DNA of 32,493 nucleotides from Alkalinema sp. RU_4_3. Its GTDB lineage: Bacteria; Cyanobacteriota; Cyanobacteriia; Leptolyngbyales; Leptolyngbyaceae. Below the pieces are notes generated by a model. The model was given only the letters and a program-made list of their open reading frames with translations. It was not told where the DNA came from and ran no database searches. Within the stretch, counting starts at the first letter, position 1. Each line of letters begins with the position of its first letter. Below are positions 9,993-32,259 of the stretch, one piece after another. Position numbers and translations under genes: made by a program. Where the stretch lies: assembly GCA_012031975.1 (NCBI GenBank), contig JAAUSA010000033.1, positions 1 through 32,493 on the forward strand. Direction: 5' to 3'.

Positions 9993-10627
9993 TTAGTTTT
10001 GCCGATCGATCGCCTCCCTCACAGGTGCATAGCTCCGCCGATGCCAGGATGTGACGCCGTATTGGGTGAGTCCTTCTAGATGTTTTTTTGTCCCATAGCC
10101 TGCGTTTTTTTCCCAGCCGTAGCCGGGATAGCGCACCGCTAGCTTTTGCATCAGCCGATCGCGCCGCACCTTAGCCACAATAGAAGCACAGGCGATCGCA
10201 TACGAAACCGCATCACCCTTGACGATCGTTGTGTAGGGCGGACGGATCGGCCCGCCCGGTTTGATCGCCCGACCGTCGATCAGGGCGTGATCGTAGGGTT
10301 CGACGCGGGCGAGGGCACGGGACATGGCCAGGTGGGAAGCCTGAAGGACATTGATGCGATCGATCTCCTCCACGCTAGCCATCCCGATACCGATCGCCAA
10401 AGCCTGGTTTTGAATCAGTTCAAACAGCTTAGTGCGCTGACTTAAGGAGAGAGTCTTTGAGTCGCGGACCTTGGGGATTAGGGGCAGTCGATCGGCACCA
10501 CAACCGCCGCAGAGACGATCGGACCCGCCAGACAGCCCAACCCCACTTCATCCACACCCGCAACAAGAAGAGCGCCAGCCTGCCACAGCTCACGCTCTTC
10601 ATCCAAAGTCGGTAGACTCACCGCCAT
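9993..10627 (-). CDS. rnhB: ribonuclease HII (one-base frameshift)
   Basis: Removes ribonucleotides and RNA from RNA-DNA hybrids. The N-terminal frame starts at ATG 10627: [20 protein letters not shown], then [23 protein letters not shown]. At 10481-10484 GGGG (CCCC on the coding strand) is one base short; correcting it joins to [24 protein letters not shown] and on to ALIDGRAI and [17 protein letters not shown]. Total 211 residues. Acidic catalytic residues are visible in GVDEVG and LIDGRA. The usual R of DExGRG is L here (DEVGLG). It starts 2 bases after the rne stop, so it is co-transcribed with rne. Confidence 0.9.
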
Positions 10628-10629
10628 TC

Positions 10630-12898
10630 CTAGCCCGCAGCGGAGGAACGCCGACGCCGACGGCGGACAACGCCTTCAGCACTATCCTCCTCGTTGCTGT
10701 CCACTAGGACAGGAATCGGATCGGGGCTGGACTGCAAAATCTCAGGCAGAGGCTCCGTCACGGCGGGCATGATGCTGGACTTGCGGCGCAGCAGGGGCTT
10801 GGTCGAAACGGGCTCCGTGGTCGGAGGGGCCACATAGGAGGCAGGCAGGTAGGGCGCAGGCACATAGGGTGCGACTTCCGGCTCCTCCGGCTCCTCATAC
10901 TCCAGATCCAATTCCGGCTGCTCCACCACCGCCGCCGCCGATGCCCCCGCTGCATGGGCCGCCATGGCCTCCAGGAACATCGCTGGGGGCTCCTCGCCCG
11001 GTAGGGTCACGGCGATCATCGTGTTCCTTGGGTTCTTCACCTGCTGATCCGACATCCACAGGGGCGAAACACCCATCCAGGCAAAGACTTCCTGCTCCTG
11101 CTCGCTCATCTCCACATGGACCACTTCGGGGGGCTCGATCGGGCCGCGATCGCGACGACCCCGACCCCGACTGCGATCCTCTCGCTCAGCACGGGGCGGT
11201 GGTCCGGCCTGCTCTTCACCGGGTTCGTCGGCATACCCGTCCGACGCAACGGTGACGGCGGGCAGAATTCGGCTGCTGGGTAAGGCCCGCTCCGGACGAC
11301 CCCGGTTGTCACGGGATTCACGGGGCTCGCGGGGATTCGCGGGGCTCACGCGGTTCGCGGGTTTCACGGGATTCGCGGGGCTCACGGGAGGGCCGACCGC
11401 TGCCGCGATCCTCCTCTTCCCAAGGCGTCGTAGTCCGGGCTGTCGGGAAAGCCAGCTCACCCCGACGACGGCGACCGCCCCGGCCGCGACGGCCATTGCG
11501 TTCCTGGTAGCTGGGGTGGTGGTTGAGATCGAGGTCGTTGCCTTCGCCGCCTTCTTCGTATTCTTCATTGAGGGCCACGGGCTCAAAGGTTTCCCGGCGG
11601 GGTTCCGCCGATCGGCGATATTCCCGGTGCTCATGGGGAGAATGGATATGCTGGCCGGGCTGCTCGCCGGGCAGGTTGACCACCTGACCGAGGCCGCCGC
11701 AGGTGGCACAGGGCTGGCCAAACAGTTCGTAGATGTTCTTGCCCTGGCGTTTGCGGGTCAATTCTACCAGGCCGAGTTCGGTCAACTGGGCGATCTGGGG
11801 TTTTGCCTTGTCCGATCGCATGGCTTTATTGAAGTGCTCCAGGACCTGCAACTGGTCCCGGCGCGATTCCATGTCGATGAAGTCTACGACGATCACCCCG
11901 GCAATGTTGCGCAACCGGAGCTGGCGGGCGATTTCCGTGGCGGCTTCGCAGTTGGTCCAAAGGACCGTCTCACGGGCGGTGGCCGATCGCGTGAAGGACC
12001 CCGAATTGACGTCGATCACCGTCAGAGCTTCGGTCTTCTCGATGATGATGTAGCCGCCGCTGGGCAGATCGACGCGAGGCTTCATGGCTTCGCGAATTGC
12101 CGCGTTGACCCGGAAGTACTCCAGCATCGGGCTGCGTTCCTTGTGGTGGTCCACCAGGATATTTTGGGGGAGCTTGCCGCCGCCCCAGCTCGTCAGGTGA
12201 CGCTTGACGCGGGTCAGGCCGGGGGCCGAATCCACCACGATCCGGTTGACATCGGCGCTGTAGACGTCCCGCAGCACGCGCTGAATGAAGTCGTCGTCCC
12301 GATTGAGTAGGCTGGGACGGGTGGTGGAGCTGACCTCCTGAATCACCGATTCCCACTGCTTTTGCAGGAGTTCTAGATCTTCGAGGATGGCTTCCTCGGG
12401 CATGTCCTCAGCTTCGGTGCGCACCAAGATGCCCATGCCAGCGGGTTTGGTCAGGATGGCGAGGGCGCGGAGGCGGTTGCGCTCGTTCTCGCTGCGGATG
12501 CGTCTGGAGAGATTGACGCCGCGACCGTAGGGCATCAGGACGAGATATCGACCGGGCAGAGAAATATTCCCGGTCAACCGGGGACCCTTGGTACCCGTCG
12601 GCTCCTTCATCACCTGGACCAGCACCTTTTGCTGGGGGGCGAGGAGCTCGGTGATCGACCCCATGGTCTTGCGCAATTTCAGGGGGCCAAGGTCAGAGAC
12701 ATGGATAAAACCGTTGCGATCGGAGTCCCCAATGTTGACAAAGGCGGCATCGATACCAGGGAGAACATTCTCCACGACACCCATATAGATGTCGCTAACC
12801 TGGTGGGTGCCCGTGGCAACAATCAGCTCTTGGATTTGATCTTCGGAAAAAACGGCAGCAATGCGATGCTGCTCGGCAATAACGATCTGTTTAGACAT
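10630..12898 (-). CDS. rne: ribonuclease E/G (one-base frameshift in the linker)
   Basis: Endoribonuclease for mRNA decay and rRNA processing. Starts [20 protein letters not shown] at 12898. S1 domain at about 35-120 ([20 protein letters not shown]), RNase H-like and DNase I-like catalytic parts with VIDVNSGS and VVDFIDM (the two metal-binding Asp positions), then the Zn-link CATCGG. The C-terminal half is a charged, disordered tail ending [12 protein letters not shown]; the RRRRRRSSA nonapeptide is the cyanobacterial PNPase-binding motif. In the RE/PRE-rich linker GGGG at 11331-11334 should be GGG; removing one base gives a 755-residue protein. Upstream is a ~420-base leader. Confidence 0.93.
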
Positions 12899-13325
12899 TA
12901 ATGGGAGTTCCTTGAACGGGGAACGCGCGTATGCTGGACCGTCGCGGTTACGTTCTGGCAACCAGGGCGCGCTATGGGTTCTGGTAGAAAAAGCTAAGCG
13001 GTCGTCCGTCGCGTGCGGGAGCAAATCCAGAGGCCCTATACCCGGCCAACAAAGGCAAACGGATGGAAACTCAAGGGTTCAAACCTACCGAGCGTCAAAC
13101 TGAATCGATCGCTTGGATTGCGGTGATTGACAGTGGGCATATTAGCTCCCAAAGGTGCAAGGCGGCTCACCTTAAGCAGCCCGAAACCCCTAGAGGAGCG
13201 ATAGACATTAATCAAAAACCTCGTGAATAGCACTGCCGCCGACCTGGAGCAATTTAACCTTCTGGTATTTCGTTCTTACGAGAAGTGCTCGCTTGTAGGC
13301 AGTTGCTATTTGATGACTCATTATA
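12899..13325 (-). promoter_or_regulatory. rne promoter and long 5' leader
   Basis: The 454-base gap between rne and the radical SAM gene holds no convincing gene. A consensus TATAAT on the minus strand (13325 down to 13320) would give an rne leader of about 415 bases. Cyanobacterial rne mRNAs are known to carry long 5' leaders that RNase E itself cleaves for autoregulation. A similar role here is inference from length and position; I did not resolve a defined fold. Confidence 0.5.
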
Positions 13326-13352
13326 GCCAATTGTGCTCCGATTGTAGCGAGT

Positions 13353-16009
13353 TTATTCTGACGGCTCCGTAGAAGCTTCCTTACCCGGCGGCAGAGGCGC
13401 GAGGAATAGGGCGACGCGATGGACCTGGCCCAGTTCTATTTCCGCCCCGCTGACACAGGCCACCATCTTGACGAGGTCCTGGGGCCGCAGCATCGTGCCG
13501 TCGTTGCGGCAGCTGCCCAGGTAGCGCAGTTTGGCTTCGCCTTCGCCGTGGCTTGTGAGGTCGAGTTCGAAGAGGCGATCGCGCAGGTTGACCGGGTAGG
13601 TCTTGCCGGATTTGGTGGTGTGTTCGACGGAGATGTCGGTGCGGTGGAGAATTTCGGCGATCGTCCCCGGCCAGTCGATGGCGCCCGCGAGCTGGACTTC
13701 GTAGGCGGCGCGATCGAGGCGGGTGGTGGCCGCAGGTTCGCTCGGGCTGACGCTTTCCACACTATAGATAGGCATGTCGGCGGGGAGTTGCGCCGCAAGG
13801 GCTGCTCGGAAGGCTTCGGCCTCCATCGGCACCGTCAGCTCAAAGTCCATCAGTTCGCCGCTGCTGGTGTGGCCCAGGGACAGAGCATTGGCCGGGACAA
13901 TCCGGGGGTTGGGGTGGAAGCCGCCCGTGAAGGAGATGGGAATGGCGGCGCGGCGGACGGCGCGATCGAACAGTCGCAGAACATCCAGGTGACTGACCAG
14001 GGCCATGGACCCCTGTTTGCCGTAGCAGAGGCGCAGGCGGGCCTGGCGATCGGTATTGGGCTTGAAATGGCCGACAAACTCCGGAATCGGCAGGGGCGGC
14101 ACCACAATGTTATGGCCGAAGTCCGGACTACAAACCCCGCAGTGGGAACAGCCCTCGAAGGAGCAGTCCGGCACCACCGCCGCCGCCAGGGCCTTTTTCA
14201 GGTCGTCATGGAGCCACTGCTTGTCTATTCCTGTATCCATATGGTCCCAGGGCAGGGGTTTGGCCACATCAGCAGTCGATAGCCGCCGATTTCCTCGTCG
14301 ATGGCAAACAGGTTCCATTCGCCGGATTCCACCTGGCGGTACTTCCAGTTGAGGCCCGCTTCGTCGATCGCCTGGGTCCAGGCACCATAGGCTTTTTCCG
14401 TGCTCTCCCACCAGGCATCCATCCCGGCGCCCAGTTCCCAGGCCCGTTTGATCACGGGGGCGAGGCGGCGATCGCCCCGGCCCACGAAGTCCTCCATGGC
14501 GGAGATCCGGTAGTCGGTGAAGTTGGCCTTGACGCCCCGCAGATCGCGGAAGGCCTGCCAGAGGAGATCTTTCTTGCGGACGAATTCCGACGCAGAGACG
14601 GAATGCCACTGGAAGGGGGTGTGGGGTTTTGGGGTGAAGTTGGAGATGGTGACGGTGAAGTTGAGGCGCTTGCGGCCCTTGGCGAAGCATTGTTCGCGGA
14701 GCCAGGAGAGGGTTTCGACGATGCCCATTACGTCGGCGTCGGTTTCGCCGGGCAGGCCAATCATGAAGTAGAGCTTCACCTTGTCCCAGCCCTGTTCCCA
14801 GGCGGTTTTGACGCCCCGCAGGAGTTCTTCGTTGGTCAAACCCTTGTTGATAATGTCCCGCAGGCGCTGGGTGCCCGCCTCCGGGGCGAAGGTGAGGCTC
14901 ATCTGCCGGGTGCCACCGAGGATGTTGGCGATGTTTTCGTCGAAGCGATCGACCCGTTGACTGGGCAGAGAAAGGGAGATGTTTTCGTTTTGCAGGCGAT
15001 TCTTAATCTCCAAACCCACGGCAGGTAGCGCTAAGTAGTCAGAACAGGACAGGGACAGGAGCGAAAACTCGTTGTAGCCCGTGGCTCGGATACCCTTTTC
15101 GATCGCACTAATCACCTGCTCCGGCTCCACATCTCGGGCCGGACGGGTCAACATGCCGGGTTGGCAAAAACGGCAGCCGCGCGTGCAGCCCCGGCGGATT
15201 TCCACGGTGAGGCGATCGTGGACAGTTTCGACGTAGGGGACAAGGCCGATCGAGTAGTGGGGCATCGGGTCGGCGACGCGGCGGAGGATCCGAGGTGGCA
15301 CCTCAGGGCGGATCGGGTGCACTTCACCAAACTCCCCCATGGCGTAGAACATCGGCACGTAGACGCCGGGAATCTGGGCCAGATCGAGCAGGGTTTCCTC
15401 CCGCGATAGGCCCGACAGCTTGGCCTCTTCCAGGATCAGCCCAATCTCCGGCAGCAGCTCTTCCCCGTCCCCAAGGGCGATGAAGTCGAAGAAGTCTGCG
15501 AAGGGCTCAGGATTGGACGTTGCGGTTTGGCCCCCGGCGAAGATCAGCGGCCAGTTGCCAGTCTGGCGTTCCTGTGACGTAAGGGGAATGCTTGCCAGGG
15601 TAAGCATTTCGAGGATGTTGGTGGCGCCCAGCTCGTAGCTGAGACTGAAGCCGAGGATGTCGAATTCTGTGAGCGATCGCTTTGACTCCACCGCGAACAA
15701 AGGCGTCTGGGTACTGCGCAGCTTTTCGCTCAGGTCGGCGGCGGGTAGATAGGCGCGATCGCACAACTGGCGGGGCTGGGCGTTGAGAATGCTGTAGAGA
15801 ATGATGTGGCCCAGGTTGGAGGAGCCGACTTCATAGATTTCGGGGTAGGTGAGGGACCAGCGCACCACGGCGCTCTCCCAGGGCTTATGGACCGCACCCA
15901 GCTCGTTGCCCAGGTAGCGGGCGGGCCGGAGGATCTCTGGGGTGATGAGGTCCTGGGGCCGAGAGCCCGTTTGCTCTTGGCCCGTTTGCTCTTGGATGGT
16001 TGTGATCAC
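13353..16009 (-). CDS. TIGR03960-type radical SAM protein fused to DUF2344 (frameshifted)
   Basis: N-terminal part: LITPEILRPARYLGNELGAVHKPW, a B12-binding-like region (WSLTYPEIYEVGSSNLGHIILY), then the radical SAM cluster motif CTRGCRFC (CX3CX2C) in EIRRGCTRGCRFCQPG. The C-terminal part, after DCSFEGCSHCGVCSPDFGHN (extra cysteines, possible second cluster), is the DUF2344/TIGR03936 domain (LRLCYGKQGSMALVSHLDVLRLFDRAVRRAAIPISFTGGFHPNPRI). The two frames overlap at 14225-14300, and one missing base there (before KPLPWDHMDTGIDKQW) joins them into about 885 residues. Widespread in cyanobacteria; the reaction is unknown to me. EQTGQEQTG at the N terminus is a short tandem duplication. Confidence 0.88.
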
Positions 16010-16074
16010 GGGATTCTGCCCTCTACCAAGAAATTGCGCTTTCCCAGTATAGGGTCAAGGTCCCAGATACAGCA

Positions 16075-16104
16075 CAGGCCCCGCCAACATCTTGGCAGGG
16101 CCTG
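16075..16104 (-). terminator. hairpin after the STAS gene
   Basis: On the minus strand, arms CAGGCCCTGCCAA and TTGGCGGGGCCTG pair over 13 bp with one U-G, around a 4-base loop. It lies 25 bases after the STAS stop and before the radical SAM gene start. No strong U-run follows. Confidence 0.6.
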
Positions 16105-16128
16105 GAAAGAAAGCTGTGGGATAGGTCC

Positions 16129-16455
16129 CTAGACCACTTCAAAAGCCACGGGGCTAGGAAGAATTTCGAAGACGCGATCGAGCTGGGTCAGTTCCAACAT
16201 GATCCGCGCCGAAGCGGGTACGGAGCAGAGGCTGAAGCGCTTATCAAGGCGCTGGGCCAGAGTCAGAGCCGAAACGAGGGCCATCAACCCGGCACTGTCA
16301 AAGGATTCAACCTGACTCATGTCCACGAGGACTGCCGTTGCATCGGAATTGACCATATTGGTCAACTGCTGCTGGAATTCTGGGGCACTGGCTGCATTCA
16401 CATGGCCCTGGGCACGGAACATAGCACCTTGGGCGCGGGTAAGCAGGCTCTGCAT
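16129..16455 (-). CDS. STAS domain protein (anti-sigma factor antagonist-like)
   Basis: 108 residues from MQSLLTRAQG at 16455, chosen for GAGGT just upstream; the longer frame to 16497 has no family resemblance. One STAS domain: VLVDMSQVESFDSAGLMALVSAL, with the phosphorylatable Ser in FDSAGL (about 54), then RFSLCSVPASARIMLELTQLDRVFEI. Such proteins bind or release an anti-sigma factor or partner kinase according to Ser phosphorylation; no partner kinase or phosphatase is in this window. It has its own hairpin terminator and a long divergent upstream region. Confidence 0.88.
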   Translation of the reverse strand: MQSLLTRAQGAMFRAQGHVNAASAPEFQQQLTNMVNSDATAVLVDMSQVESFDSAGLMALVSALTLAQRLDKRFSLCSVPASARIMLELTQLDRVFEILPSPVAFEVV

Positions 16456-16654
16456 AATCAACCTCAACAAAAACGATTTAGACAACGGCTTGAACACTTA
16501 TGCAATGAAGATAACTGCTTACTTAGGAAGCGCGCCATCTATTGGAGGGGGGATTTTCCGAATCTTTATCTAGGGGGGAGAATTGTTTTATTTTGGCCAA
16601 GATGGCCTGTCTATCGGGTATCAAGGCATACCGTTTACAGAGTTTCATGGAGAA

Positions 16655-16685
16655 TTGACAAATTCCCTCTCCCCAGAGATAGATA
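16655..16685 (+). promoter_or_regulatory. possible promoter with TTGACA
   Basis: TTGACA at 16655-16660 is followed at 17-19 bases by GATAGATA, a poor -10. It lies in the 452-base STAS/16908 divergent gap, which otherwise holds no convincing gene. Low confidence because of the -10. Confidence 0.3.
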
Positions 16686-16701
16686 TTTCTCCCCAAAGAT
16701 A
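16668..16701 (+). repeat. two 14-bp direct repeats 20 bp apart
   Basis: TCTCCCCAGAGATA (16668-16681) and TCTCCCCAAAGATA (16688-16701) match at 13 of 14 positions, with starts exactly 20 bp apart, about two helix turns. They overlap the possible promoter at 16655-16685, as tandem operators often do. Confidence 0.5.
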
Positions 16702-16807
16702 CTGGCTTAAAGACGTATTACTCAAGGGGGAATCACTCCTCCTCTGAGAATCTGCGGTCTGGCCGGGTCCGCAATTGTACGCCTATGTTAAGCAATATTG
16801 AGCGAAA

Positions 16808-16823
16808 TGTGATGAAAATCACT
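16808..16823. promoter_or_regulatory. CRP-type binding site
   Basis: TGTGA-N6-TCACT differs from the CRP/SyCRP1 consensus TGTGA-N6-TCACA at one base, and the core GTGATGAAAATCAC is an inverted repeat. It is centred about 92 bases before the ATG at 16908, in the divergent gap with the STAS gene. Binding is inferred from the match. Confidence 0.5.
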
Positions 16824-16907
16824 ATTTTCCCTGCATCCCGTCACATCCCGAGTTATTTAATTCATAGAAGATACGTCCTTAATACCCCTGTTTTGCGAGG
16901 TCCCGCC

Positions 16908-17102
16908 ATGAATAACATTGGAATTATTCGCCGACTGGTTGAACAAGCACTCTATTTGAAGCAGCTCACACCGATGATCGAAGATGCGATCAATTCTGAG
17001 CTGACCCGCCTGGGCCATATCTCCTCCGTTGACTATGAGGCCCTAGAACTGCTGATGGAAGAGATGGACGCGGGCCGCGTTGCCTTGGTTCCTAGCTGCT
17101 AG
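16908..17102 (+). CDS. small conserved-looking protein, 64 residues
   Basis: The frame is open from 16785, but the likely start is ATG 16908 (MNNIGIIRRLVEQALYLKQL), because the CRP-like site and AT-rich promoter-like DNA occupy the upstream part. Predicted mostly helical and acidic: LTPMIEDAINSELTRLGHISSVDYEALELLMEEMDAGRVALVPSC. No signal peptide, membrane helix or metal motif. It resembles short hypothetical proteins seen in cyanobacteria, but I cannot name a family. 66 bases upstream of dapL on the same strand. Confidence 0.65.
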   Translation: MNNIGIIRRLVEQALYLKQLTPMIEDAINSELTRLGHISSVDYEALELLMEEMDAGRVALVPSC

Positions 17103-17168
17103 TGGTCTAACCACAGGGGCGGTAAACTGTCTAAGAACCCACTGACCTGCAGCGTCAAGGACAAGTTT

Positions 17169-18403
17169 ATGGCCAGAATCAACGACAACTACCTCAAACT
17201 CAAAGCGGGCTACCTCTTTCCCGAAATAGCCCGCCGAGTCAATGCCTTTGCCGAACAAAACCCAGGTGCACCGATCATCCGTCTGGGCATTGGCGATGTG
17301 ACCGAACCTTTGCCCCAAGCCTGCCGTGATGCCATGGTTAAGGCCGTCGGAGACATGGGCGATCGCGCCGCCTTCAAGGGCTATGGCCCCGAACAGGGCT
17401 ACCTGTGGCTCAGGGAGGCCATTGCCAAGCAGGACTTCCAAGCGCGGGGCTGCGAGATTGACGCCTCGGAAATCTTCATCTCCGATGGCTCTAAGTGCGA
17501 CTGCGGCAACATCCTCGACATCTTTGGCCATGATAATGCGATCGCCGTGACGGATCCGGTCTACCCCGTCTATGTCGATACCAATGTGATGGCAGGCAAC
17601 ACGGGCGATATCAATGACAGGGCGAGTATGGCGGCCTGGTCTACCTGCCGATCACCGCAGACAACAGCTTCACAGCCGTTATCCCCACCACCAAGGTTGA
17701 CCTAATCTATCTCTGCTTCCCCAACAACCCCACGGGGGCCGTGGCCACGCGTGAGCACCTAGAGAAGTGGGTGGCCTACGCCAAGCAGCATGGCTCGATC
17801 ATCTTCTTCGATGCGGCCTACGAAGCCTTCATCACGGATCCGGCGATTCCTCACTCGATCTATGAGATTCCGGGGGCGAGGGACTGTGCGATCGAATTCC
17901 GGTCTTTTTCCAAGAACGCCGGGTTCACTGGCACCCGCTGCGCCCTGACGGTGGTGCCCAAGGGCCTCAAGGGTAAAGCCGCCGACGGCAGCGAGGTTGA
18001 GATCTGGCCCCTTTGGAACCGTCGCCAGTCCACCAAGTTCAATGGGGTGTCCTACATTGTCCAGCGCGGGGCAGAGGCCGTTTACTCCGCTGAGGGTCAG
18101 GCCCAGACCAAGGCGCTGATTAGCTTCTATATGGAGAACGCCAAGATCATTCGGGAGCAGTTGACCTCCGTGGGCCTAGAGGTCCATGGCGGCATCAATG
18201 CGCCCTACGTTTGGTTGAAGACGCCGGATAACCTATCGAGCTGGGACTTCTTCGACAAGCTGTTGGTCAACTGCAACGTCGTCGGCACCCCTGGCTCGGG
18301 GTTTGGGGCCGCCGGGGAAGGCTACTTCCGCATTTCAGCCTTCAACAGCCGGGACAATGTCAATGAGGCCATGGCGCGAATAACCGCGAAGTTTAAACAG
18401 TAA
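17169..18403 (+). CDS. dapL: LL-diaminopimelate aminotransferase (one-base frameshift)
   Basis: PLP enzyme converting tetrahydrodipicolinate directly to LL-diaminopimelate for lysine and peptidoglycan synthesis; the route used by cyanobacteria and plants. The start [24 protein letters not shown] is the family start, with AAGGA upstream. The first frame runs to [12 protein letters not shown]; one A is missing at about 17619 (family reads [14 protein letters not shown]). The second frame carries [20 protein letters not shown] and the PLP lysine in [12 protein letters not shown] (about residue 249), and ends ARITAKFKQ. Corrected length 411 residues, as in the family. A strong terminator follows. 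Confidence 0.95.
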
Positions 18404-21430: not shown

Positions 21431-23844
21431 GGGCGGATTCGCCGAGCAGGGCGATCCGGCCATCCCCGAGCGGCTGCCAGGCTTGGGCTTCGAGGCTAAT
21501 TTGCGCGGTGGTTTGAGACCTTGGGGCGAGGCGGAGATCGGCCCAGGGTTGGACGGGGTTGAGGGCGCCTTGGGGGTTTTCGGGCAGGCCGCCGCGACCC
21601 GTGGCGACGAATTGGCTGCTGTCGCGATTGGCCCCGCAGCGATCGTCGATCTGATTGGCGGAATCGACGAAGTCCCCGGAGAGGGAGGACTTTTCCTCGG
21701 CTTCCCTAAAGTCAGGGTTGCTGATCGCCACGCTGCCGCTCACTCCGATTTCAGAGTTGGCCGTGATGTCACTCTCGGGGGTCCGTTGCAGTCGGTATTG
21801 CAGGCCGATCAGCGCCTGGGTGTTGATCGTAATGTTGCCGCCGTTGCCCGGCGAGCTTCGGCGGTGATGTCGCTGTTGTTGAGGCCGACGATATTGGGGG
21901 CATTGATTTCGATGTTGCCGCCGTTGCCGTTGCCTCGGGCGTTGGTGGAGATGCTGCCGCCGTCCCTGATGAGGAGACTACTGCGGGCATTAACCATCAA
22001 TTCCCCGCCGTTGCCGCCTTGGGTGGTGGCGGCGATCGAACCCTTGTTTTTGAGCGCGATGCGATCGGCGTTGATGGTTAGGGTGCCGGAGTCTCCCGAA
22101 CCCAGGTTACGCACGGTCACCAAGGCGTTGTCGGTGACTTCTAGCTGGGCCGTATTAATCACGAGGTTGCCGCCATTGCCTGAGGGTGTGGCCGCAACGT
22201 TATACAGCGTTTGCAAGGCTGGGGGAAGGACGTTGCCTGCGGCGCTGATTTGACTTTGGAGTTTTGACGGGGAGGTGCCTTGGACGGTGACGGAATCGCG
22301 GGCATTGACGGTAATGCTGCCCGCGTTGCCCGCGCTCACCGTGGAGGCTCCCAAACGTCCGCCATTTTGAATCAACAGGCGGGGCGTCGTCACCACCACA
22401 TCGCCTGCGTTGCCCGATCCGGTACGGGAGCCGACGGAAATATCAAAGATGGTACTAAATTGCCCAAACTTTAATTCCTGGCCCGACAGGACGATCGAAT
22501 CCGTCGCCGTCACCGTCACGTTGCCCGCATCGCCCAGGTCCAGGGTGGCACTGCCGATCGAGCCGCTATCGAGGGCCTGGAGTTGGCCGGAGGAGACCGT
22601 CACATCCCCGGCTCGACCGTTGGTGTAGGTGTAGGTAAAGATGCCGGAGAAATTAGAAGTATCAATGGGCGAAAATCCCTTTACCCAGAGGGTATCCGGG
22701 GCAATCACCTGAATATCGCTGCCTCTGGCCGCACTAAAACTCTTGGTATTCACCGTTGAACCATCCAGCAGCTCCACTGTCGGTGCTTGCAACTGCACCA
22801 AACCCCCTGGGCCATCACTGAGCTGCTGGCCATGAACCCCGGTTTGGAGCTGGCCATCGGCGGTGGTGCCCGTGAAGCGCAGGCCTTGGCTAGCCGTCAG
22901 GTTGATGGTGCCCGAGGCGAGGCGGCCTGTGTTTTGCATCAGGGCAATGGAACCCTCGCTAAAGTTCACCTGGGAACCCCGGACCTGGAGACGACTGCCG
23001 CCGGACCACTGTTGTCTAGGATCGATCGCCCCTGCAAGGTCACCGCCCCAAACTGACTGACTTGGCCGTAGTCCAACTTGCCATCGGGGGCGATCGCCAC
23101 CGTACCCGCCTGAACGCCTCCCAGGTCCAAGCTTCCCTGGGGCACCCGCAGCACTGCTCCATCGAGCAGAATCTCACTGCCGACGAACTGTAAATTCTGG
23201 CCGGGGTTGACCGTCAACGCTTGGGTTGTGGGGCCGTTGACTAGGGCCGTGCGGCGATCGGGACGGCTCTGCCCTGTGACGTTATGGCCATTCCCTTGCA
23301 GTTGAATCCCACCGGACTTCCCAGCGAACTGCAATCCGATCGGCACACTGACGGTGAGGAGTTGGGGTTGGAGGGCAGCGCTAAACACCGTCCCGTCACT
23401 AAATTTGAGGCTACTGGCGGTGGTGCCGAGGAAGGAGCCGCCGAGATTCAGGGAGGCATTGGGGCCAAACACAATTCCGGCGGGGTTGAGCAAAAATAGG
23501 TTGGCGGTGCCTGAGGTCGCCAAACGCCCGTCGATTGAAGAGACCTGTCCCCCCGTCACCCGGCTAAAAATATTGGTAATCCCTGGTCCATGGACAAAGG
23601 TGACCGAGCCCGCCGTCGGCACTGAAAAAGCTTGGAAACTATGGAACAAATTTGACCCAGCGCTGCTGCCCTGGAGCACTTGAAAATTCTGACCCCCAAG
23701 GTCAAGCACTTGGGTGGAGAGCGTTGTATCGGCCAGCGGAACCGACTGCGCGGTAGCGGGACCAATGCCCAGGTGCACCCATACAAAACCCAGGAGCGCG
23801 ACAGGCAAGCGATTCACCCATCGGAACGATCGCATTGGTTGCAT
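21396..23844 (-). CDS. filamentous haemagglutinin-type exoprotein (two frameshifts)
   Basis: Secreted beta-helix protein of two-partner (TpsA) type. Three frames join: 23844-22966 has a signal peptide (cleavage likely after GPATAQ) and the TPS domain with NLFLLNPAGIVFGPNASLNLGGSFLGTT; 22969-21809 has repeated GNAGxVxV / GGNGGxLxI strands and DGSTV turns; 21743-21396 has the common cyanobacterial tail (FVATGRGGLPENPQGALNPVQPWADLR). One base is missing at 23001-23003 and one at 21847-21849. Corrected length about 816. No TpsB transporter is in the window. Adhesion or a cell-surface role is inferred from the family. Confidence 0.88.
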
Positions 23845-23995: not shown

Positions 23996-24044
23996 CCTGG
24001 AGATTAACGCTAGATCCTAGGATGATTACACAGGTGTGCACAGC

Positions 24045-25127
24045 ATGGGCTTGCTCTCAATGATCAAGCCAGACTCGTTTTGTTGGACTCTACAATTACC
24101 TGCTATTTTGTGTGGCTCTGCTATGTGTTACGCCCCTGTTTCCCAACCGTTGACGGATTCGGCGATCGCCCCTCTGAAGCTTCAGGCTTATCAGCAAATT
24201 AACTTTGGCAAAATTGCTCTCACGCCGCAGCAACAGGAGTCCCTCGCCGGACTCAATCGTCAGTTGATTCCCTTCTGTCAATCCCTGCCCCCAGCATTGC
24301 AAACTGGGGCCATTTTCGCCATTCAGCAATATTTCACAGGCTTTCAACTGGGGAATTTGCAGCAGTTTTTTAATAAGTTCTATGCCCCCAGTTGGACCTT
24401 GCTGGGCTGGATGGGCAGCGAGGCAATCTCCGCAGCGGAATTGGAACAGGCTATTCATCTTCAAGGGATGGCCTATTTCCTGCATATGCTGGATGACCAC
24501 TTGGCGGATGGTCAAATTCCCATCAGCCATTTGATGCTGCAACTGCGGACCCAGGCCTGGATGCGGTTTATTCAAGGGGCGGAGCAGTTGGTTCTGTCGG
24601 AGAGTTGTCAGGAATCGCTGATTTACGGTTGGATCAATCGCTATTTCAGTGGGATGCAAGGGGCTGAGCCTGTGGATAGCCTGGCTGCCTATTGCGATCG
24701 ATTTCGCCAGCAGCTCAGCACCACGCTGGTGTTGCCGATGATTCTGGCCGATCGCACCGGGTACAATGCTGATGATGTCCAGGAGGCCTACGAAGCCTTT
24801 TGCATTGCCTGGCGTCTCTTGGATGATCTGCGCGATTGCCAAGAGGATGCGCTGGCTGGAGAACTGTCAGGGATTTATTATTTGCTGCCCTTGGAGCAGC
24901 GTCAAGCTTGGCTTGACTGTCAGGGATTGGAGCCAGCGGCGGCACAGTGGCAGCAACTATCCGAGTGTTTAGAATTTTCAGGGGTTTTACCCGCCGCCAT
25001 ACGGGAGATCTTGGCTTGGTTGGCGATCGCCCAGGCGGCGGCGGAGCGGGCGAATCTACCGGGCTATGCTGGGGAGTTGCGACAGTTGGCGGGGCCTTTG
25101 GTTGAGTTATTAGAGATGGAGTCGTAG
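24045..25127 (+). CDS. class I isoprenoid-synthase-like protein
   Basis: About 360 residues, mostly helical. Two acidic motifs match the class I isoprenoid-synthase pattern, numbered from ATG 24045: DDHLAD in AYFLHMLDDHLADGQ (about 150-155) and DDLRD in IAWRLLDDLRDCQED (about 260-264), 110 residues apart as in polyprenyl synthetases, with the second followed by a D and a GELSG turn. They would bind Mg2+-diphosphate. No NSE motif and no squalene/phytoene synthase signature. GTG 24036 is in frame; ATG 24060 is also possible. The first ~40 residues are hydrophobic and may not be part of the domain. First gene of the five-gene + block; substrate unknown. Confidence 0.6.
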   Translation: MGLLSMIKPDSFCWTLQLPAILCGSAMCYAPVSQPLTDSAIAPLKLQAYQQINFGKIALTPQQQESLAGLNRQLIPFCQSLPPALQTGAIFAIQQYFTGFQLGNLQQFFNKFYAPSWTLLGWMGSEAISAAELEQAIHLQGMAYFLHMLDDHLADGQIPISHLMLQLRTQAWMRFIQGAEQLVLSESCQESLIYGWINRYFSGMQGAEPVDSLAAYCDRFRQQLSTTLVLPMILADRTGYNADDVQEAYEAFCIAWRLLDDLRDCQEDALAGELSGIYYLLPLEQRQAWLDCQGLEPAAAQWQQLSECLEFSGVLPAAIREILAWLAIAQAAAERANLPGYAGELRQLAGPLVELLEMES

Positions 25128-25147
25128 TCATTTTTGGAGAAGCGATC

Positions 25148-25354
25148 ATGAAGACTTACATGGATTTTATTACGGATATCACGACGAATAGCGGACTATT
25201 GCAGGAGTTGGAGCTGGTGTTGCCTTTTCCCAATACTGATGCATTGACGGTTTGGTTTTCCTATAAGGGATATGCCTTGGGGGATGAGGATGCGGCGATG
25301 TTGTATCAGCATCAAAACGCTTTGATGGATTCGGAGGAGCCGATTCATTATTAG
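25148..25354 (+). CDS. small Nif11-like protein, 68 residues
   Basis: Starts at ATG 25148 behind TGGAGA, 20 bases after the isoprenoid gene. The spacing of MDFITDITTNSGLLQELELV, then a central helix, then FSYKGYALGDEDAAMLY resembles the Nif11/Nif11-like leader fold (FLxxVxxDxxLQxxL ... GYxLSxED). Nif11-type leaders normally end in a double-glycine cleavage site; this one ends SEEPIHY, so it is not a standard peptide precursor. It could be a stand-alone Nif11-like protein or a partner of the adjacent enzymes. Assignment by eye only. Confidence 0.5.
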   Translation: MKTYMDFITDITTNSGLLQELELVLPFPNTDALTVWFSYKGYALGDEDAAMLYQHQNALMDSEEPIHY

Positions 25355-25409
25355 ATTGATCATTCAGCGGTGGCATCGATCGGATCGTTTCATAAATTGC
25401 TTGTACCCC

Positions 25410-26228
25410 ATGTGTTCCACAATTGCACTGCCTCAGCCCGCTCCAAGAATGGTATTTACCCTACGCGGCCCGAATCCACGCCCAATTTTTCTGTCGGAAT
25501 CTGACTGGACGGGCCGGATGTTTTCGCTCTGTATGACGCCCCATTGGCGGGGGATTCCCTGGGGAGACGAGCGACTTGATGTGGAGGGCAGTAGCTATTT
25601 GCTGTTTCCTGAGGCGGCGGCGGGGCAGGCCTATTCGGCCCATTTTGACCCGAATAGTCCCTATTTTTATGCCTTCTTTGGCACCTATATTATTGCGCCC
25701 CAGGATGGAAAACGCCTGCCGCCGGAGATTTTTGCGGAATTAGGCAACCGAGATAATCTTGCCTGGCTACGCACCATGGGCGATCTTCACCCCTTCTCAG
25801 CGGTGACGACACCGACCCTTTTGCTGCCGGAGCCGGGGGAAATCGATCGCTGGTCCTTCGTTGCCACCTACGCTGTCCATAACGGGTTGGGTCTGAATAA
25901 TCCGCGAGCGGGATTACCGGAATTGCTGCTGCCCCCGGAGTCGGGGGTTTGGTCCAATGTGATTGACAGCTACCAAAATATGGTGATGCATTGTCAGGGC
26001 AAAATTTGGTATGAAGGGGACTATTTGATTATGAGCTTTTTCACGGGGGCTGAATATTTCCGCCGATCGGGAAAGCGCATTAATACCTTCCACCAATTTC
26101 CAGCTTTTTATCAACAGCAGGGTCGCATGCTGGATGCCGTCAAGATTATTAACGATGGTTCTGGCTTCTCTACCCCCGATCGCACCTCCTTTGCCGAGAA
26201 ACGCACCCATTATGAAACGCGCAATTAG
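25410..26228 (+). CDS. unknown protein of the five-gene block, 272 residues
   Basis: The frame is open from 25356 (TTG, one base after the Nif11-like stop), but ATG 25410 (MCSTIALPQPAPRMVF) is more plausible. It is rich in aromatic residues and beta-type segments (WTGRMFSLCMTPHWRGIPW, YFYAFFGTYIIAP, IDRWSFVATYAVHNGLGLN, KIWYEGDYLIMSFFTGAEYFRR). No signal peptide, no membrane helix and no catalytic motif I recognise. Its 3' end overlaps the GMC oxidoreductase start by 17 bases, which ties it to that operon. Lipid-binding or substrate-binding is a guess not supported by motif. Confidence 0.7.
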   Translation: MCSTIALPQPAPRMVFTLRGPNPRPIFLSESDWTGRMFSLCMTPHWRGIPWGDERLDVEGSSYLLFPEAAAGQAYSAHFDPNSPYFYAFFGTYIIAPQDGKRLPPEIFAELGNRDNLAWLRTMGDLHPFSAVTTPTLLLPEPGEIDRWSFVATYAVHNGLGLNNPRAGLPELLLPPESGVWSNVIDSYQNMVMHCQGKIWYEGDYLIMSFFTGAEYFRRSGKRINTFHQFPAFYQQQGRMLDAVKIINDGSGFSTPDRTSFAEKRTHYETRN

Positions 26229-27746
26229 AGACTCTATCCCTTCCAGTTTTGACTACATTATCGTAGGGGCAGGCGCCACGGGCTGTGTCCTAGCCAATCG
26301 CCTGAGCCAAAACCCCAATTGCCGGGTTTTATTAATTGAAGCGGGATCGCGCGATCGAGCCTCCGAAATCCATCAACCGGGCGGTTTGTTTAGCCTCTGG
26401 GGTAGCGAACTAGACTGGCAGCATAGCACCGAGCCCCAGGCGGGATTGGGGGGGCGATCGATTCTGCTCTCCCAGGGTAAGGTCCTGGGCGGTTCGAGCA
26501 GTATTAATGCGATGATTTACACCCGTGGCCATCGGCGGGATTTTGACCATTGGAAACGCCTGGGCAACGAGGGTTGGGGCTATGACGAAGTACTGCCCTA
26601 TTTCCTCAGGTCTGAAAACTTCCTCGGACAACCCTCGCAATACCATGGCATCGGTGGCGAATTAACGGTGCAAACCTGCCCCACCCCACGGAAATTGCCC
26701 AGGCCTTTGCCCAATCCGGCAGCGCCCTTGGCTATGGCACCGATTGGGATTTCAATGGTGCCCAACAAGAGCGCGGCACAGGTTTGTATCAGGTTACAGT
26801 AAACGCCGAGGGGAAACGCTGTAGTGCAGCGGTGGCGTTTTTAAATCCGATTTTATACCGATCGAATCTCACCATCCTCACCAACATAGAAGTGACGCAA
26901 ATCGTCATCCAAAACCATCGCGCCATCGGTGTTTTGCTTCAATCCGGTGAGACAATCCAGGTCGATCGCGAGGTGATTATATCTGCGGGGGCGATCGCTT
27001 CGCCAAAACTCCTAATGCAATCCGGCATCGGCAACGCCCAGGATCTCAAACACCATGGCATTGCGGCACAATGCGATCTCCCCGGCGTCGGCCAAAACCT
27101 CCAGGATCACCTGATGCTGATGCTACCCTACCAGGCAAGGCAATCGATGCCTATCCCGGAATACCTCGGGGAGGCCGGACTATTCGTCAACACGGGCAGC
27201 GATTTAGTCGTAGATGCCTCCGATTTACAGGTCCATTTCACCGGAAATATGCAGCCATTATTGGGCGGTCAGGCGCTTGGCCCTGTCTTCTTCGCCTGTC
27301 CCACCTTGCTAAAACCGGAATCCTTGGGGGAAATCAAACTGCGATCGGCCCAATTTGATAGTCCTTTAGCGATTAATCCAAACTACTTAAACTGCGATCG
27401 CGATGTCGATGTTTTGCTCCAAGGGATTCACTTAGTCCGAGACCTCGTCCACAGCGACGTCATGGCTCCGTTTTTAGAATCAGAACTAGCCCCAGGCTTA
27501 GCTGCCGATTCCCAAACCTTGCGATCGTTTATCCGATCACAGGCCTCCACCATTTGGCATCCCTCCGGCACCTGCAAAATGGGCCGAGATGAAACTACCG
27601 TAGTCGATTCCCAGCTCCGCGTCCATGGCATTGACCAATTGCGGATCGCCGATGCTTCGATTATGCCGCGCATCATCAGTGCCAACCTCCAGGCCACCTG
27701 CATGATGATTGGTGAAAAGGCCGCCGACTTAATTCTCCACCCCTAA
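26212..27746 (+). CDS. GMC family flavin oxidoreductase (one-base frameshift)
   Basis: FAD enzymes of the glucose-methanol-choline type oxidise alcohols or aldehydes. The N-terminal frame has the FAD-binding DYIIVGAGATGCVLANRLS, LLIEAGSRDR and the GMC signature GKVLGGSSSINAMIYTRGH. One C is missing at 26684-26687; the corrected frame continues PTEIAQAFAQSGSALGYGTD to a C-terminal part with IISAGAIASPKLLMQSGIG (second GMC signature), GVGQNLQDHLM and the active-site His in STIWHPSGTCKMG, ending ATCMMIGEKAADLILHP. Corrected length about 511 residues, normal. Overlaps the preceding gene and is 15 bases before the next. Substrate unknown. Confidence 0.92.
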
Positions 27747-27761
27747 ACCCACCCCAACGCC

Positions 27762-29060
27762 ATGTACACCGACTCCCCCGCCCAATCCATCCACTCCGCC
27801 ATCGGCGGCTTCCAAACCGACTTTGGCGGTGTCAAACGCTACCGGGCTAGCGTTGTGCAGCCCGTGCGATCGACCCTCAACGTCCTCGATGCCTTAGCCC
27901 AGGCCAGGTCCCAGCAGCTTTCCGTAACCATCCAAGGGGCGGGCCATTCCTTTCGAGGACAGAGTCTCAGCTCCGGCGGGATGCAGATGCGGAACTATAG
28001 TAAGTCAGCGGATGTTACTTTTTTAGAGGATGGCTTAATTGAGGTGTCGAGTCGAAGCAGCTGGCGATTTGTGGAGCGATCGCTGAATCAAGCGGGCAGA
28101 CAGTCCCCCGTCCTAACCGACTATCTCGATCTCTCCGTCGGCGGCACATTATCCGTCGGCGGCATGGGTCTAGCCTCGATTACCCAGGGCTTCCAAGTTG
28201 ATCATGTGGTTAAGCTAAAACTCATCCAACCCGATGGCCGCGTCCTTTGGTGCTCTCGGGAAGAAAACAGTGAATTATTCCGCTTTGCCTTAGCGGGTAT
28301 GGGACAAGTGGGCTTTATCGATCGCGTCATCATGGGAACGGAGCCCTTTCGCCTCTTGACCCACAGCTTAAAACGCGTCCATCGCAACGTCGGCGAAATG
28401 ATGACATTAATTGCCGAGCTTGCGGCCCCAGGCAGTGGGGTCGAGCATTTCAATGGCTACATTGGCGGCAATGAAATTGCTTCAGAATATGGCTATTTTA
28501 GCAATTCGGATACGCTGGATCGATCTCCACTTGCTCCAAACTTACAGAAGGCGATGGTGATGCGATCGGAAACGGACGCTACGTTTAAGATCCAAGATCG
28601 CCGCGATAGCTGGATGGCAGAGTTTCCCGATCACTTTCAAATTTGGACGGACTATATTTTCACCTACGAGAATGCGGTGAAATTCATGGCCTATTTGGAA
28701 CCCTTGATGGAACAAGACCCCTTAAATGAAGCGCTCAAGGCGATCTATGTCCTGATCCTCCGCCGCCCAGAGAATGCCGTTCCCTTCGCCTTTCTACCCG
28801 CACCTCCGGGCGACTTCCTCGTTAGCATCGGCCTCTACACCATGGTCAACTGCTGGAATCCCACCCTGCTGGCCAAAACCCTACCGATACTAAAAGAGGC
28901 CCTGGCGACCTGCCAAGCCATGGAAGGCCGCCCCTACCTATACGGCTTCAACGAAATGGACGAAGCCATGAAGATCAAGTTCTACGGCTCAGACTACCAC
29001 CGCCTCCAAGTCCTGCGCCAGGACCATGGCCTCATGGGACTGAATCCTGAGAGCTTTTAA
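27762..29060 (+). CDS. cytokinin-dehydrogenase-like FAD oxidoreductase
   Basis: 432 residues of the VAO/PCMH (FAD_binding_4) superfamily. VTIQGAGHSFRGQSLSSGG carries the His (H62) that in relatives binds FAD covalently. The region DYLDLSVGGTLSVGGMGLASITQGFQVDHV, then LIQPDGRVLWCSREENSELFRFALAGMGQVGFIDRVIM closely resembles cytokinin dehydrogenases (VGGTLSNxG ... CSxxENSELFxxxLGGLGQFGIIT). The C terminus is less alike, so the substrate need not be a cytokinin. No signal peptide. Last gene of the block; converges with the TPR relic with a 3-base stop overlap. Confidence 0.85.
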   Translation: MYTDSPAQSIHSAIGGFQTDFGGVKRYRASVVQPVRSTLNVLDALAQARSQQLSVTIQGAGHSFRGQSLSSGGMQMRNYSKSADVTFLEDGLIEVSSRSSWRFVERSLNQAGRQSPVLTDYLDLSVGGTLSVGGMGLASITQGFQVDHVVKLKLIQPDGRVLWCSREENSELFRFALAGMGQVGFIDRVIMGTEPFRLLTHSLKRVHRNVGEMMTLIAELAAPGSGVEHFNGYIGGNEIASEYGYFSNSDTLDRSPLAPNLQKAMVMRSETDATFKIQDRRDSWMAEFPDHFQIWTDYIFTYENAVKFMAYLEPLMEQDPLNEALKAIYVLILRRPENAVPFAFLPAPPGDFLVSIGLYTMVNCWNPTLLAKTLPILKEALATCQAMEGRPYLYGFNEMDEAMKIKFYGSDYHRLQVLRQDHGLMGLNPESF

Positions 29061-29443
29061 CCTTTTTTGGCATAGGCTTCTTGAGTCTCCTGGGGGAGTG
29101 CACGAATATTTTGACGGAGAATTTCATACTGTGCAACCAATTTTTTATAGAAAACGATCGCCAGTTCAGGTTGCTTTTGAGTGGCGAGTAGGGAGCCAAT
29201 ATTTTTAAGGATAATCGCTTCGCCGCTGCGATCGCCCACAGCATGAAACATTGGCAGGGCCTGATTGTAATAATTTAATGCTTTCTGCTTTTCTCTCAAA
29301 TCATCATAGACACGACCGATATTATTGAGTGCGGTTGCTTCGGCGCTGCGATCGCCCAGGGCTCGACTGATCGGGAGCGGGGCGATCGACAGACCCATTG
29401 CCAAAGCAAGCGTAATTTGTAGGAGCGATCTCTGGAAGCACAT
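29057..29443 (-). pseudogene. truncated TPR protein (TPR-CHAT type remnant)
   Basis: 128 residues with two GDRS-type TPR units (ISRALGDRSAEATALNNIGRVYDDLREKQKALNYYNQAL and VGDRSGEAIILKNIGSLLATQKQPELAIVFYKKLV), then YEILRQNIRALPQETQEAYAKKG, a stretch that in full-length cyanobacterial TPR-CHAT proteins leads into the CHAT domain, here cut off by the stop. The N terminus (MCFQRSLLQITLALAMGLS) is hydrophobic but runs straight into a partial repeat, so this looks like the tail of a degraded gene. Another piece of the same repeat lies at 29484-29556. Confidence 0.65.
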
Positions 29444-29663: not shown

Positions 29664-30289
29664 ATGACGATCGCCACCGATCGATCGATCCAACAGAAGC
29701 CACTGAGCTTTGAAGGCTTTTTAGCCCAGTATGGCGACAACGATCACTACGAGTTGATTGACGGAGAGCTATTTGATTTGGAACCTACAGGCCCCCACGA
29801 GGAAGTTGCCGCCAAGATTGGCCAGTGGCTCAACTTTGAAATTGTCCAGCAGCGCCTCAACTACTTCATTCCCCATCGTTGCTTGATCAATCCCCTATCG
29901 GCCTGGACAGGGTTTCGACCTGATGTGATAGTGCTGGACCGATCGGAGTTATCCAAAGAACCCCTCTGGAATAGTGAGCCCGTCATCACCATGGGTAGTA
30001 CGGTCAAATTTGTTGCTGAAGTCGTCAGTAGCAACTGGCAGAACGACTACGCCAGAAAATTTGAAGACTATGCCCTACTCGGCATTCCAGAATATTGGAT
30101 CGCTGACCATGCAGCCCTCGGGGGCGAAATCTTCATTGGCCGTCCAAAGCAAGTTTCCCTAACAATCTGTACCATGGGCGCTGATGGCCGCTATCAAACA
30201 CAAATTCTACGGGGAAACGAAGCGATCGTTTCCCCCACATCCCCGGCCTGAACCTGACAGTAGAAGACCTGTTGAGCACTGGCGGTTAA
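29664..30289 (+). CDS. Uma2 family (DUF820) endonuclease-like protein (3' frameshift)
   Basis: Second Uma2 protein in the window. HYELIDGELFDLEP at the N terminus; FRPDVIVLDRSEL, KFVAEVVSSNWQNDYARKFEDYALLGIPEYWIAD carry the D, E and K core and the family signature. The open frame stops at 30251 after VSPTSPA, but one missing T at about 30240 would continue into FPGLNLTVEDLLSTGG, the usual family ending, stopping at 30289 (about 208 residues). Most likely a sequencing deletion. Flanked upstream by the TPR relic and downstream by a second Uma2 tail, so this is a region of gene decay or turnover. Confidence 0.85.
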
Positions 30290-30544: not shown

Positions 30545-30724
30545 CTAGGCGCTACGACTGCGCCAACCCAGAACGATCGCCATCACCACCGTCGGCAGAA
30601 AAATCCCAACCAGGGCATTCTGAGGCGTCGCCGGAATCGCGGCGTAGGGGGCCAGGTACTTGATCACCAGGGTGATGGCGATCGAAGCCCCCAGCAGTTT
30701 AATCAGCAGAAAATATTGGGTCAT
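30545..30724 (-). CDS. 59-residue two-helix membrane protein
   Basis: ATG at 30724 overlaps the TGA of the peptidoglycan hydrolase by 4 bases (ATGA), a typical coupled junction. The protein reads MTQYFLLIKLLGASIAITLV, a short PYAAIPATPQN turn, a second hydrophobic helix (VGIFLPTVVMAIVLGW) and a basic tail RSRSA. Two membrane spans with a short loop and a positively charged C terminus are holin-like, but also fit many small membrane proteins. I do not recognise a family. Confidence 0.6.
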   Translation of the reverse strand: MTQYFLLIKLLGASIAITLVIKYLAPYAAIPATPQNALVGIFLPTVVMAIVLGWRSRSA

Positions 30725-32259
30725 TTTTTCAGGGCGGAAGCCAGATATTGTTTCCAGTAGGCATAGGCCTCAGCCAGACGAACATCATACTCATTCTGCC
30801 GATAGCCCTCCCCATTGTAACCCCTAGCAAAGGCCGCCCAGTTTCGCCGGACCAACGCGGGGGCTAGATCCGCATTGCGGATGAAGTTAAACATGGCGAT
30901 CAACTGCTTCCCCTCACTGATGTGCATGTCTTTGACAAAGTCCTCCACATTTGGGTAGCCCGCCAGGTTGTGATTAAACCCCATAATCTGGCCGAGGCCC
31001 CAGGAGGCCGACTGGAGAGCTGCAGCGCGATTCAGGTTGGCGGCGCGATAGAGACGATCCCATTCACCGACCCCACCAATATATAGACTGCGATTCCACA
31101 CAGGACTAGAAAGACTCGGGGCCGTATCGTCATAGATCCCATCCGTCAAATCCGAAAACCAATGGGCCTCAAACAAAATTTTCGATCGCCCATCCGCAAA
31201 GAACCCCGAACCCGCCGCTTCCACCTCCGTCACCGCCCGCACCGTCGCCTCTTCACAGCCCATCATCTTGGCCACGGTTTGGTAGTCCTGGTCGGTCAGT
31301 TTTGCAGGCTTTTCGGGCACAGGAATTCTGGGGATTTCGGGTTCCAGCAGGAGTTTTGCGCCGCGCGGGGAGAGGGCTAGGTTGGTGGCATCAAAACTGA
31401 GGCTGTCGAACTTGGTCGCAAAGGCTCGGTAGGCCGTCTGGGTTCTGTTGCCCCAGGCGCCGTCTTCGGCACCGGGTTGGTGGCCCATGGCATTGAGGGA
31501 CTGCTGGAGTTCCTGGGTCAGGCCACTGGAGGCTTTGACTTGCTCAACGGACCAGCGGTATTTCCCAGTTCGCACAGCCCTGAGATTATCGGGTGCTTTT
31601 CCACTGTCCGGCGCCCAGGCCAAGCTATCCGGTGGGGTAGGTTTAACCGTAATAACGGGTGGGTCAACCTTGGGTGGGTCAACCTTGGGCGGGTCAACTT
31701 TAGGCGGATCAAGCTTGGGCGGAGCAGGCTGGGGCAGCAGCAGCTTGGCCGCTTGGGGGGTGATGGTATTGGTGGGGAGTTTGTTGGCGGTGGCCCAGGC
31801 GATGTAGGCATCTTGGCTGGTAAACCCCCAGAGGCCATCGATCGTCCCTGGCTTCTGACCAACGGCGGTGAGACGGGTTTGAATATCGCGGACTAGGGCG
31901 TTATTCAGATAGACCGCATCAATGGAGACATTGGTGGAGCCGTCGGCGATCGCCTTCAAACTAGAGGGCACCAAGGGCGGCTCAACCTTGGGCTGTGGCA
32001 ATAGGAGTTTTGCCGCTTGGGGGGTGAGGCTATCGGTGGGCAGGGCCTTGCTTTTGGCCCAGGCAGCATAGGCGGATTCGGTCCTGCTACCCCAGAGACC
32101 ATCGATGGTGCCGGGCGCCTGACCCAGGGCCGTCAAGCGCTGCTGCAACTCTCTGACCAAACCCTGGTTGCCTCGGATGGCCATCAGATTGTAATTGCTG
32201 GTGCCCGAGGCGATCGTCTGGAGCGTCTTCTCGTTGCAAAAGGGTGAGGTCACCTTCAA
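30721..32259 (-). CDS. peptidoglycan-binding N-acetylmuramidase-like hydrolase (N terminus uncertain)
   Basis: Three peptidoglycan_binding_1-like repeats (LVRELQQRLTALGQAPGTIDGLWGSRTESAYAAW; LVRDIQTRLTAVGQKPGTIDGLWG; LTQELQQSLNAMGHQPGAEDGAWGNRTQTAY), a PPKVD-repeat linker, then a C-terminal N-acetylmuramidase (DUF3380-type) domain: VRAVTEVEAAGSGFFADGRSKILFEAHWF ... SWGLGQIMGFNHNLAGY ... WAAFARGYNGEGY. The Glu residues of EVEAAG and LFEAHWF are catalytic candidates. The true N terminus is not visible: only from about TLQTIASG (near 32225) does it match the second repeat, and further upstream the frame runs into foreign DNA. Coupled to the 59-residue membrane protein. Confidence 0.85.
   Translation of the reverse strand: MKVTSPFCNEKTLQTIASGTSNYNLMAIRGNQGLVRELQQRLTALGQAPGTIDGLWGSRTESAYAAWAKSKALPTDSLTPQAAKLLLPQPKVEPPLVPSSLKAIADGSTNVSIDAVYLNNALVRDIQTRLTAVGQKPGTIDGLWGFTSQDAYIAWATANKLPTNTITPQAAKLLLPQPAPPKLDPPKVDPPKVDPPKVDPPVITVKPTPPDSLAWAPDSGKAPDNLRAVRTGKYRWSVEQVKASSGLTQELQQSLNAMGHQPGAEDGAWGNRTQTAYRAFATKFDSLSFDATNLALSPRGAKLLLEPEIPRIPVPEKPAKLTDQDYQTVAKMMGCEEATVRAVTEVEAAGSGFFADGRSKILFEAHWFSDLTDGIYDDTAPSLSSPVWNRSLYIGGVGEWDRLYRAANLNRAAALQSASWGLGQIMGFNHNLAGYPNVEDFVKDMHISEGKQLIAMFNFIRNADLAPALVRRNWAAFARGYNGEGYRQNEYDVRLAEAYAYWKQYLASALKK
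31659..31733 (-). repeat. 15-bp coding repeats (PPKVD linker)
   Basis: Four to five copies of a 15-base unit (GGTGGGTCAACCTTG and variants on the + strand) encode PPKLD/PPKVD in the hydrolase linker. Such units expand and contract by slippage, so copy number may vary between strains. Confidence 0.8.

Follow-up and report, generated by a model that had tools for sequence, protein, structure and literature searches.

A conserved five-gene block encoding a candidate isoprenoid-synthase-like protein and two flavin oxidases in Alkalinema sp. RU_4_3

The described systems closest to the locus reported here are the class I trans-prenyl diphosphate synthases (PF00348) and squalene/phytoene synthases (PF00494), the canonical bacterial class I terpene synthases, the GMC oxidoreductases of the choline dehydrogenase/MftG group, the cytokinin dehydrogenases (CKX; PF01565 and PF09265) and, at the level of gene arrangement, the fas operon of plasmid pFiD188 and the terpenoid biosynthetic gene clusters. 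In cytokinin dehydrogenases the histidine of a GHS motif links the FAD cofactor and an Asp and a Tyr (D169-Y170 of ZmCKX1) act on the substrate. NoCKX1 of Nostoc, which has neither the histidine nor the aspartate, was found to be inactive (PMC4574047). The window analysed in this work, positions 1 to 32,493 of contig JAAUSA010000033.1 of Alkalinema sp. RU_4_3 (GCA_012031975.1), carries at 24036-29060 on the + strand a compact block of five genes, four of which had been given a provisional label in an earlier interpretation made from the DNA letters alone (the sequence-only reading). That reading regarded the combination of genes as undescribed, and indeed no description of such a five-gene cluster was found in the open-access literature.

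Compared with these systems, gene 1 (24036..25127, 363 aa from GTG 24036), a probable class I isoprenoid-synthase-like enzyme, resembles PF00348 and PF00494 enzymes in its all-helical model and its two Asp-rich motifs, its AWRLLDDLRD aligning with AFQIVDDxLD of class I prenyl synthases and its fold matches coming from the same superfamily, but it scores under all cut-offs, lacks GGKRxRP and has a motif spacing of about 110 residues. With canonical bacterial class I terpene synthases it shares the first Asp-rich motif and, we infer, diphosphate ionisation, whereas it has no Pfam or NCBIfam match and its second motif is DDxxD rather than the NSE triad. Gene 4 (26212..27746) has both domains, the FAD motif and the HPxGTCxMG motif of the choline dehydrogenase/MftG group of GMC oxidoreductases but differs in its neighbourhood, in a frameshift present here and in subfamily scores that stay under the cut-offs. 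Gene 5 (27762..29060) shares the FAD domain and the GHS and TDYLxLxVGGTLS motifs of cytokinin dehydrogenases, without their PF09265 substrate domain or their PHPWLN and HFG motifs. The pFiD188 fas operon, as annotated, also has a gene for a CKX-family FAD protein beside a prenyltransferase gene; that prenyltransferase, however, is an adenylate dimethylallyltransferase, a different kind from gene 1, and the P450, ferredoxin and LOG-type genes of the fas operon are absent from the five-gene block. The conserved co-location of enzyme genes typical of terpenoid clusters is found here as well, with 5/5 genes together in a second genome. We read the five genes as one operon for a small, undescribed isoprenoid-type pathway, and assign this reading a probability of about 0.5.

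Conservation and distribution of the five-gene block

The operon part of this reading follows from the conserved gene order, the tight spacing in two genera, the coding constraint and the way in which genes 1, 3 and 5 match in their occurrence. The synteny comparison proposed in the sequence-only reading, in which the block would prove either conserved or scattered, was carried out and revealed the complete set of five, in unchanged order and on one strand, in G203, a genome from the same family but another genus (locus L006: gene 1, 9860-10864; gene 2, 9633-9839; gene 3, 8851-9633; gene 4, 7315-8829; gene 5, 5990-7312). In the window, coding regions were confirmed where five co-oriented genes, spaced 15-55 bases apart or overlapping, had been noticed: 20 nt separate gene 1 from gene 2 (25148..25354, 68 aa), 55 nt separate gene 2 from gene 3 (25410..26228, 272 aa, measured to its ATG at 25410), genes 3 and 4 overlap by 17 nt (26212-26228) and 15 nt separate genes 4 and 5. 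In G203, 20 nt lie between genes 1 and 2, genes 2 and 3 overlap by 1 nt, and the two remaining gaps measure 21 nt and 2 nt. Similarity of gene 1 to its G203 copy sets in at about ATG 24123, possibly the true start, and a TTG at 25356 is a possible alternative start of gene 3. Promoter and terminator scans gave results close to shuffled expectation.

Protein identities between the two copies were 48% for gene 1, 57% for gene 2, 51% for gene 3, about 59% for gene 4 and 60% for gene 5. The fraction of differing nucleotides was 0.63-0.72 at third and 0.23-0.32 at second codon positions, and since the differences fall mostly on third positions all five genes are protein-coding and constrained; third positions differing at 63-72% also indicate that the divergence of the two copies is old. 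That the five genes form one operon is well supported.

Genes 1, 3 and 5 (the last at a threshold of E<=1e-30) were each confined to the window genome and G203, or 2/390 sampled genomes of the class, and gene 3 to the same two genomes in an order sample (n=42) that included several further genomes of G203's genus. Neither gene 1 nor gene 3 had a relative in plasmid records. The rarity of the block is well supported among the sampled genomes. It stays together in G203 but, being very rare, is not common across cyanobacteria.

Gene 1 and its solo homologues

Both Asp-rich motifs pointed out in the sequence-only reading are present in gene 1 (DDHLAD and DDLRD), and all their Asp residues are invariant between the two operon copies, in which the first motif reads DDHLAD or DDHISD and the second DDLRD in both. 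In an AlphaFold2 (AF2) model the protein is all-helical, with the first motif ending helix 124-147 and the second near the end of helix 236-261, and the 50 top-ranking PDB matches in a fold search with this model were, essentially without exception, class I prenyl synthases. As a control, the poorer gene 3 model, built from one sequence with a predicted local distance difference test score (pLDDT) of 33, retrieved a random mix of folds. When the gene 1 profile was aligned to cyanobacterial GGPPS, solanesyl-type and phytoene synthases, the second motif fell on the second motif every time, with scores exceeding those of column-shuffled controls in 60/60 cases for GGPPS and 57/60 for phytoene synthase, but the profile did no better than shuffles against squalene-synthase-like proteins (17/60 shuffles as good). 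A PDB sequence search with gene 1 returned nothing meaningful. The isopentenyl-diphosphate site GGKRxRP, present in the cyanobacterial synthases compared, is absent in all five gene 1 homologues. Motifs, model, fold matches and profile alignments cumulatively support, without proving, a class I isoprenoid-synthase fold in which the two Asp-rich motifs would bind the metal-diphosphate.

The three homologues outside the operon are solo copies, found in 3/218 Nostocaceae-type genomes, namely Calothrix sp. NIES-4101 (L009, 9995-11041), G418 (L013, 7879-8922) and G419 (L014, 9664-10695), and genes 2-5 are not adjacent to gene 1 in any of them; a search of the Calothrix genome for gene 3 gave no match. 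In a sample of 391 genomes of the same order as the solo copies, the only gene 1 match was that of Calothrix. Scanning genome contigs with the single gene 1 protein gave no match and a two-sequence profile recovered Calothrix NIES-4101 only; G418 and G419 were overlooked by its short patterns, which means that it was not sensitive. The Calothrix copy keeps the third Asp of both motifs, and the G418 and G419 copies lack it in both (DDRLAN/DDLRS and DDRLSN/DDLRG). This joint loss suggests that the two third-Asp positions work together, and the G418 and G419 proteins may have lost the reaction.

nadC directly follows the solo gene in G418 and, in Calothrix, follows after an island, a context that makes the solo locus older and for which the Nostocaceae copies were rejected as recent operon fragments. 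The Calothrix interval between solo gene 1 and nadC (L009, about 11101-17800) holds oxidoreductase, SDR, hydrolase and transposase-like genes. Near the solo gene of G419 (L014, 2857-7874) lie several short open reading frames with Gly-Gly-type stretches (e.g. LSGGALSGG), which adjoin an ABC transporter and an HlyD-like gene and resemble a bacteriocin export cluster.

Flavin oxidases, small proteins and sequence quality of the locus

Gene 4, predicted earlier to be a GMC oxidoreductase, contains both GMC domains, PF00732 (GMC_oxred_N) and PF05199 (GMC_oxred_C), together with the FAD motif and HPSGTCKMG, and is assigned to the choline dehydrogenase/MftG group; its scores lie under the cut-offs of all specific GMC subfamilies. 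The likeness of gene 5 to cytokinin dehydrogenases, also proposed in the sequence-only reading, was borne out by its FAD_binding_4 domain (PF01565, E=1.6e-15), whose closest solved relatives are cytokinin dehydrogenases (E=1e-21), and by the GHS (GAGHS) and TDY (TDYL) motifs kept in both operon copies. The cytokinin-binding domain PF09265 was detected in neither copy, but a Nostoc NIES-3756 protein used as positive control matched it at 1.2e-47. The second half of gene 5 is accordingly assigned, on domain and motif content, as unrelated or strongly diverged and the protein as CKX-like, not CKX; a true cytokinin dehydrogenase was rejected for want of PF09265.

Gene 2 had been called Nif11-like, which proved to be an over-call: no Nif11, leader or other family matched it in Pfam or NCBIfam searches extended to E<=10, so that the label is unsupported and was rejected, and a Nif11 consensus did not align with it, although this is a weak test. 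It has neither a Gly-Gly site nor a variable core and is conserved along its full length, at the identity given above. Gene 3, rightly left unnamed in the same reading, has no sequence relative in the PDB.

The block was correctly counted as five coding regions, but the sequence-only reading overlooked that gene 4 lies in two frames, with its N-terminal half in frame +1 (26245-26730), its C-terminal half in frame +3 (26679-27737) and the change of frame near 26676-26690, where the sequence is rich in C. The G203 copy is intact (504 aa). Split frames also occur in the window in rpsG (1455-1990), tuf (4152-5383) and dapL (17169-18403), housekeeping genes that are implausible as all broken, and the draft assembly of 362 contigs from which the window comes therefore carries many indel errors, which calls for caution with apparent pseudogenes in the window. 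Because these genes are split likewise and the G203 copy is intact, the break in gene 4 is probably an assembly error. Both halves of gene 4 show a codon-position constraint like that of the other block genes.

The flanks of the block were also as the sequence-only reading described them, with a divergent exoprotein gene on one side and a convergent relic on the other. The former (21432..23844, - strand) encodes a TPS-domain protein of filamentous-haemagglutinin type (PF05860, E=1.6e-56), likewise split between frames by two frameshifts in the assembly, and the latter (29057-29443, - strand) is a TPR fragment. An exoprotein of the same type adjoins the operon divergently in G203 (L006, 11351-13870). 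The window protein is closest to this neighbour, with 45.5% identity in its middle part compared with <=35% for the other G203 paralogues examined, and from these values the exoproteins beside the two operons are judged orthologous. Exoproteins with TPS domains belong to an extensive paralogous family in the order, where a single genome can give as many as 17 strong matches. Outside the five genes and the exoprotein the flanks of the two loci differ. Further downstream, the window encodes a Uma2-type protein (29664-30251, + strand; PF05685) and an N-acetylmuramidase (30721-32259, - strand; PF11860) with peptidoglycan-binding repeats and a proline-rich linker.

Proposed pathway, alternatives and significance

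In the pathway that we infer, gene 1 would ionise a prenyl diphosphate drawn from the general pool and, given that both GGKRxRP and the NSE triad are absent, would cyclise or transfer the prenyl group rather than elongate a chain. The GMC enzyme would then oxidise an alcohol, and gene 5, its FAD probably linked via the GHS histidine, would carry out a second oxidation, a desaturation or an oxidative cyclisation, with genes 2 and 3 serving as accessory or tailoring proteins. More tentatively, and at somewhat less than even odds, gene 1 may be the founding member of a class I-fold family of prenyl-diphosphate enzymes that is new and escapes current family models. The operon may then represent a new kind of isoprenoid pathway, which brings together such an enzyme, a GMC oxidase, a CKX-derived flavoenzyme and a protein of a new family (gene 3) and in which no P450 takes part, a proposal that we hold equally tentatively.

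Several observations weigh against the isoprenoid reading. The sole Pfam match of gene 1, SQS_PSY, reaches 14 bits against a cut-off of 26, so that no Pfam family passes and NCBIfam returns none; the mean pLDDT of its model is 48 and the E-value of the best fold match 0.08, and the E-values of the profile comparisons are marginal (0.036-0.16). The membership in the isoprenoid synthase superfamily foreseen in the sequence-only reading is favoured by the kind of folds matched but tempered by the quality of the model and of the matches. In addition, gene 3 matches no Pfam or NCBIfam family, only two operon copies are known and gene 4 is interrupted as sequenced. The low scores of gene 1 would suit an operon in which the two flavoenzymes oxidise a non-isoprenoid small molecule and gene 1 encodes an unrelated helical protein with non-catalytic Asp motifs, as would the breadth of the GMC and FAD_binding_4 families, whose substrates include many alcohols, sugars and amines, and the loss of the third Asp from both motifs in two Nostocaceae solo copies. 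We regard this as rather unlikely in view of the coherent fold matches, which the gene 3 control did not produce, the motif-on-motif profile alignments and the retention of both Asp motifs in both operon copies. The interruption of gene 4, together with that of the adjoining exoprotein, could also mark the operon of Alkalinema sp. RU_4_3 as a decaying, non-functional remnant, but the split housekeeping genes of the same window point to assembly indels and the constraint in both gene 4 halves equals that of the other genes, making decay very improbable.

Two further alternatives concern the product. Cytokinin-like metabolism, with gene 5 a true cytokinin dehydrogenase and the operon making or degrading a hormone-like prenyl-purine, would agree with the closest solved relatives of gene 5, with its retained GHS and TDY motifs and with the pairing of a CKX-family gene and an adenylate dimethylallyltransferase gene in the annotated pFiD188 operon; it is nevertheless improbable, as PF09265 is missing from both gene 5 copies despite the clear match of the Nostoc control, and the block holds no adenylate prenyltransferase or LOG-type gene. 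The position of the short gene 2 between modifying-enzyme-like genes recalls a cluster for a ribosomally synthesized and post-translationally modified peptide (RiPP), in which gene 2 would be a Nif11-type precursor modified by the other products and gene 1 a peptide prenyltransferase. However, whole-length conservation and the missing Gly-Gly site set gene 2 apart from typical RiPP precursors, no Nif11 or leader model matches it, a variable core is lacking and neither a transporter nor a peptidase is encoded within the block, so that we give this origin very little weight.

The locus is read as a gene cluster of isoprenoid type, in which gene 1 would represent a plausible but unproven new family of synthases. 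Genome mining finds terpenoid clusters via known synthase models, under whose cut-offs gene 1 scores, so that clusters like this one go undetected if gene 1 is indeed a prenyl-diphosphate enzyme. The locus would further offer a case in which the joining of a cytokinin-dehydrogenase-type flavin domain to a different substrate domain can be tested, and the two unassigned protein families represented by genes 2 and 3 gain a pathway context.

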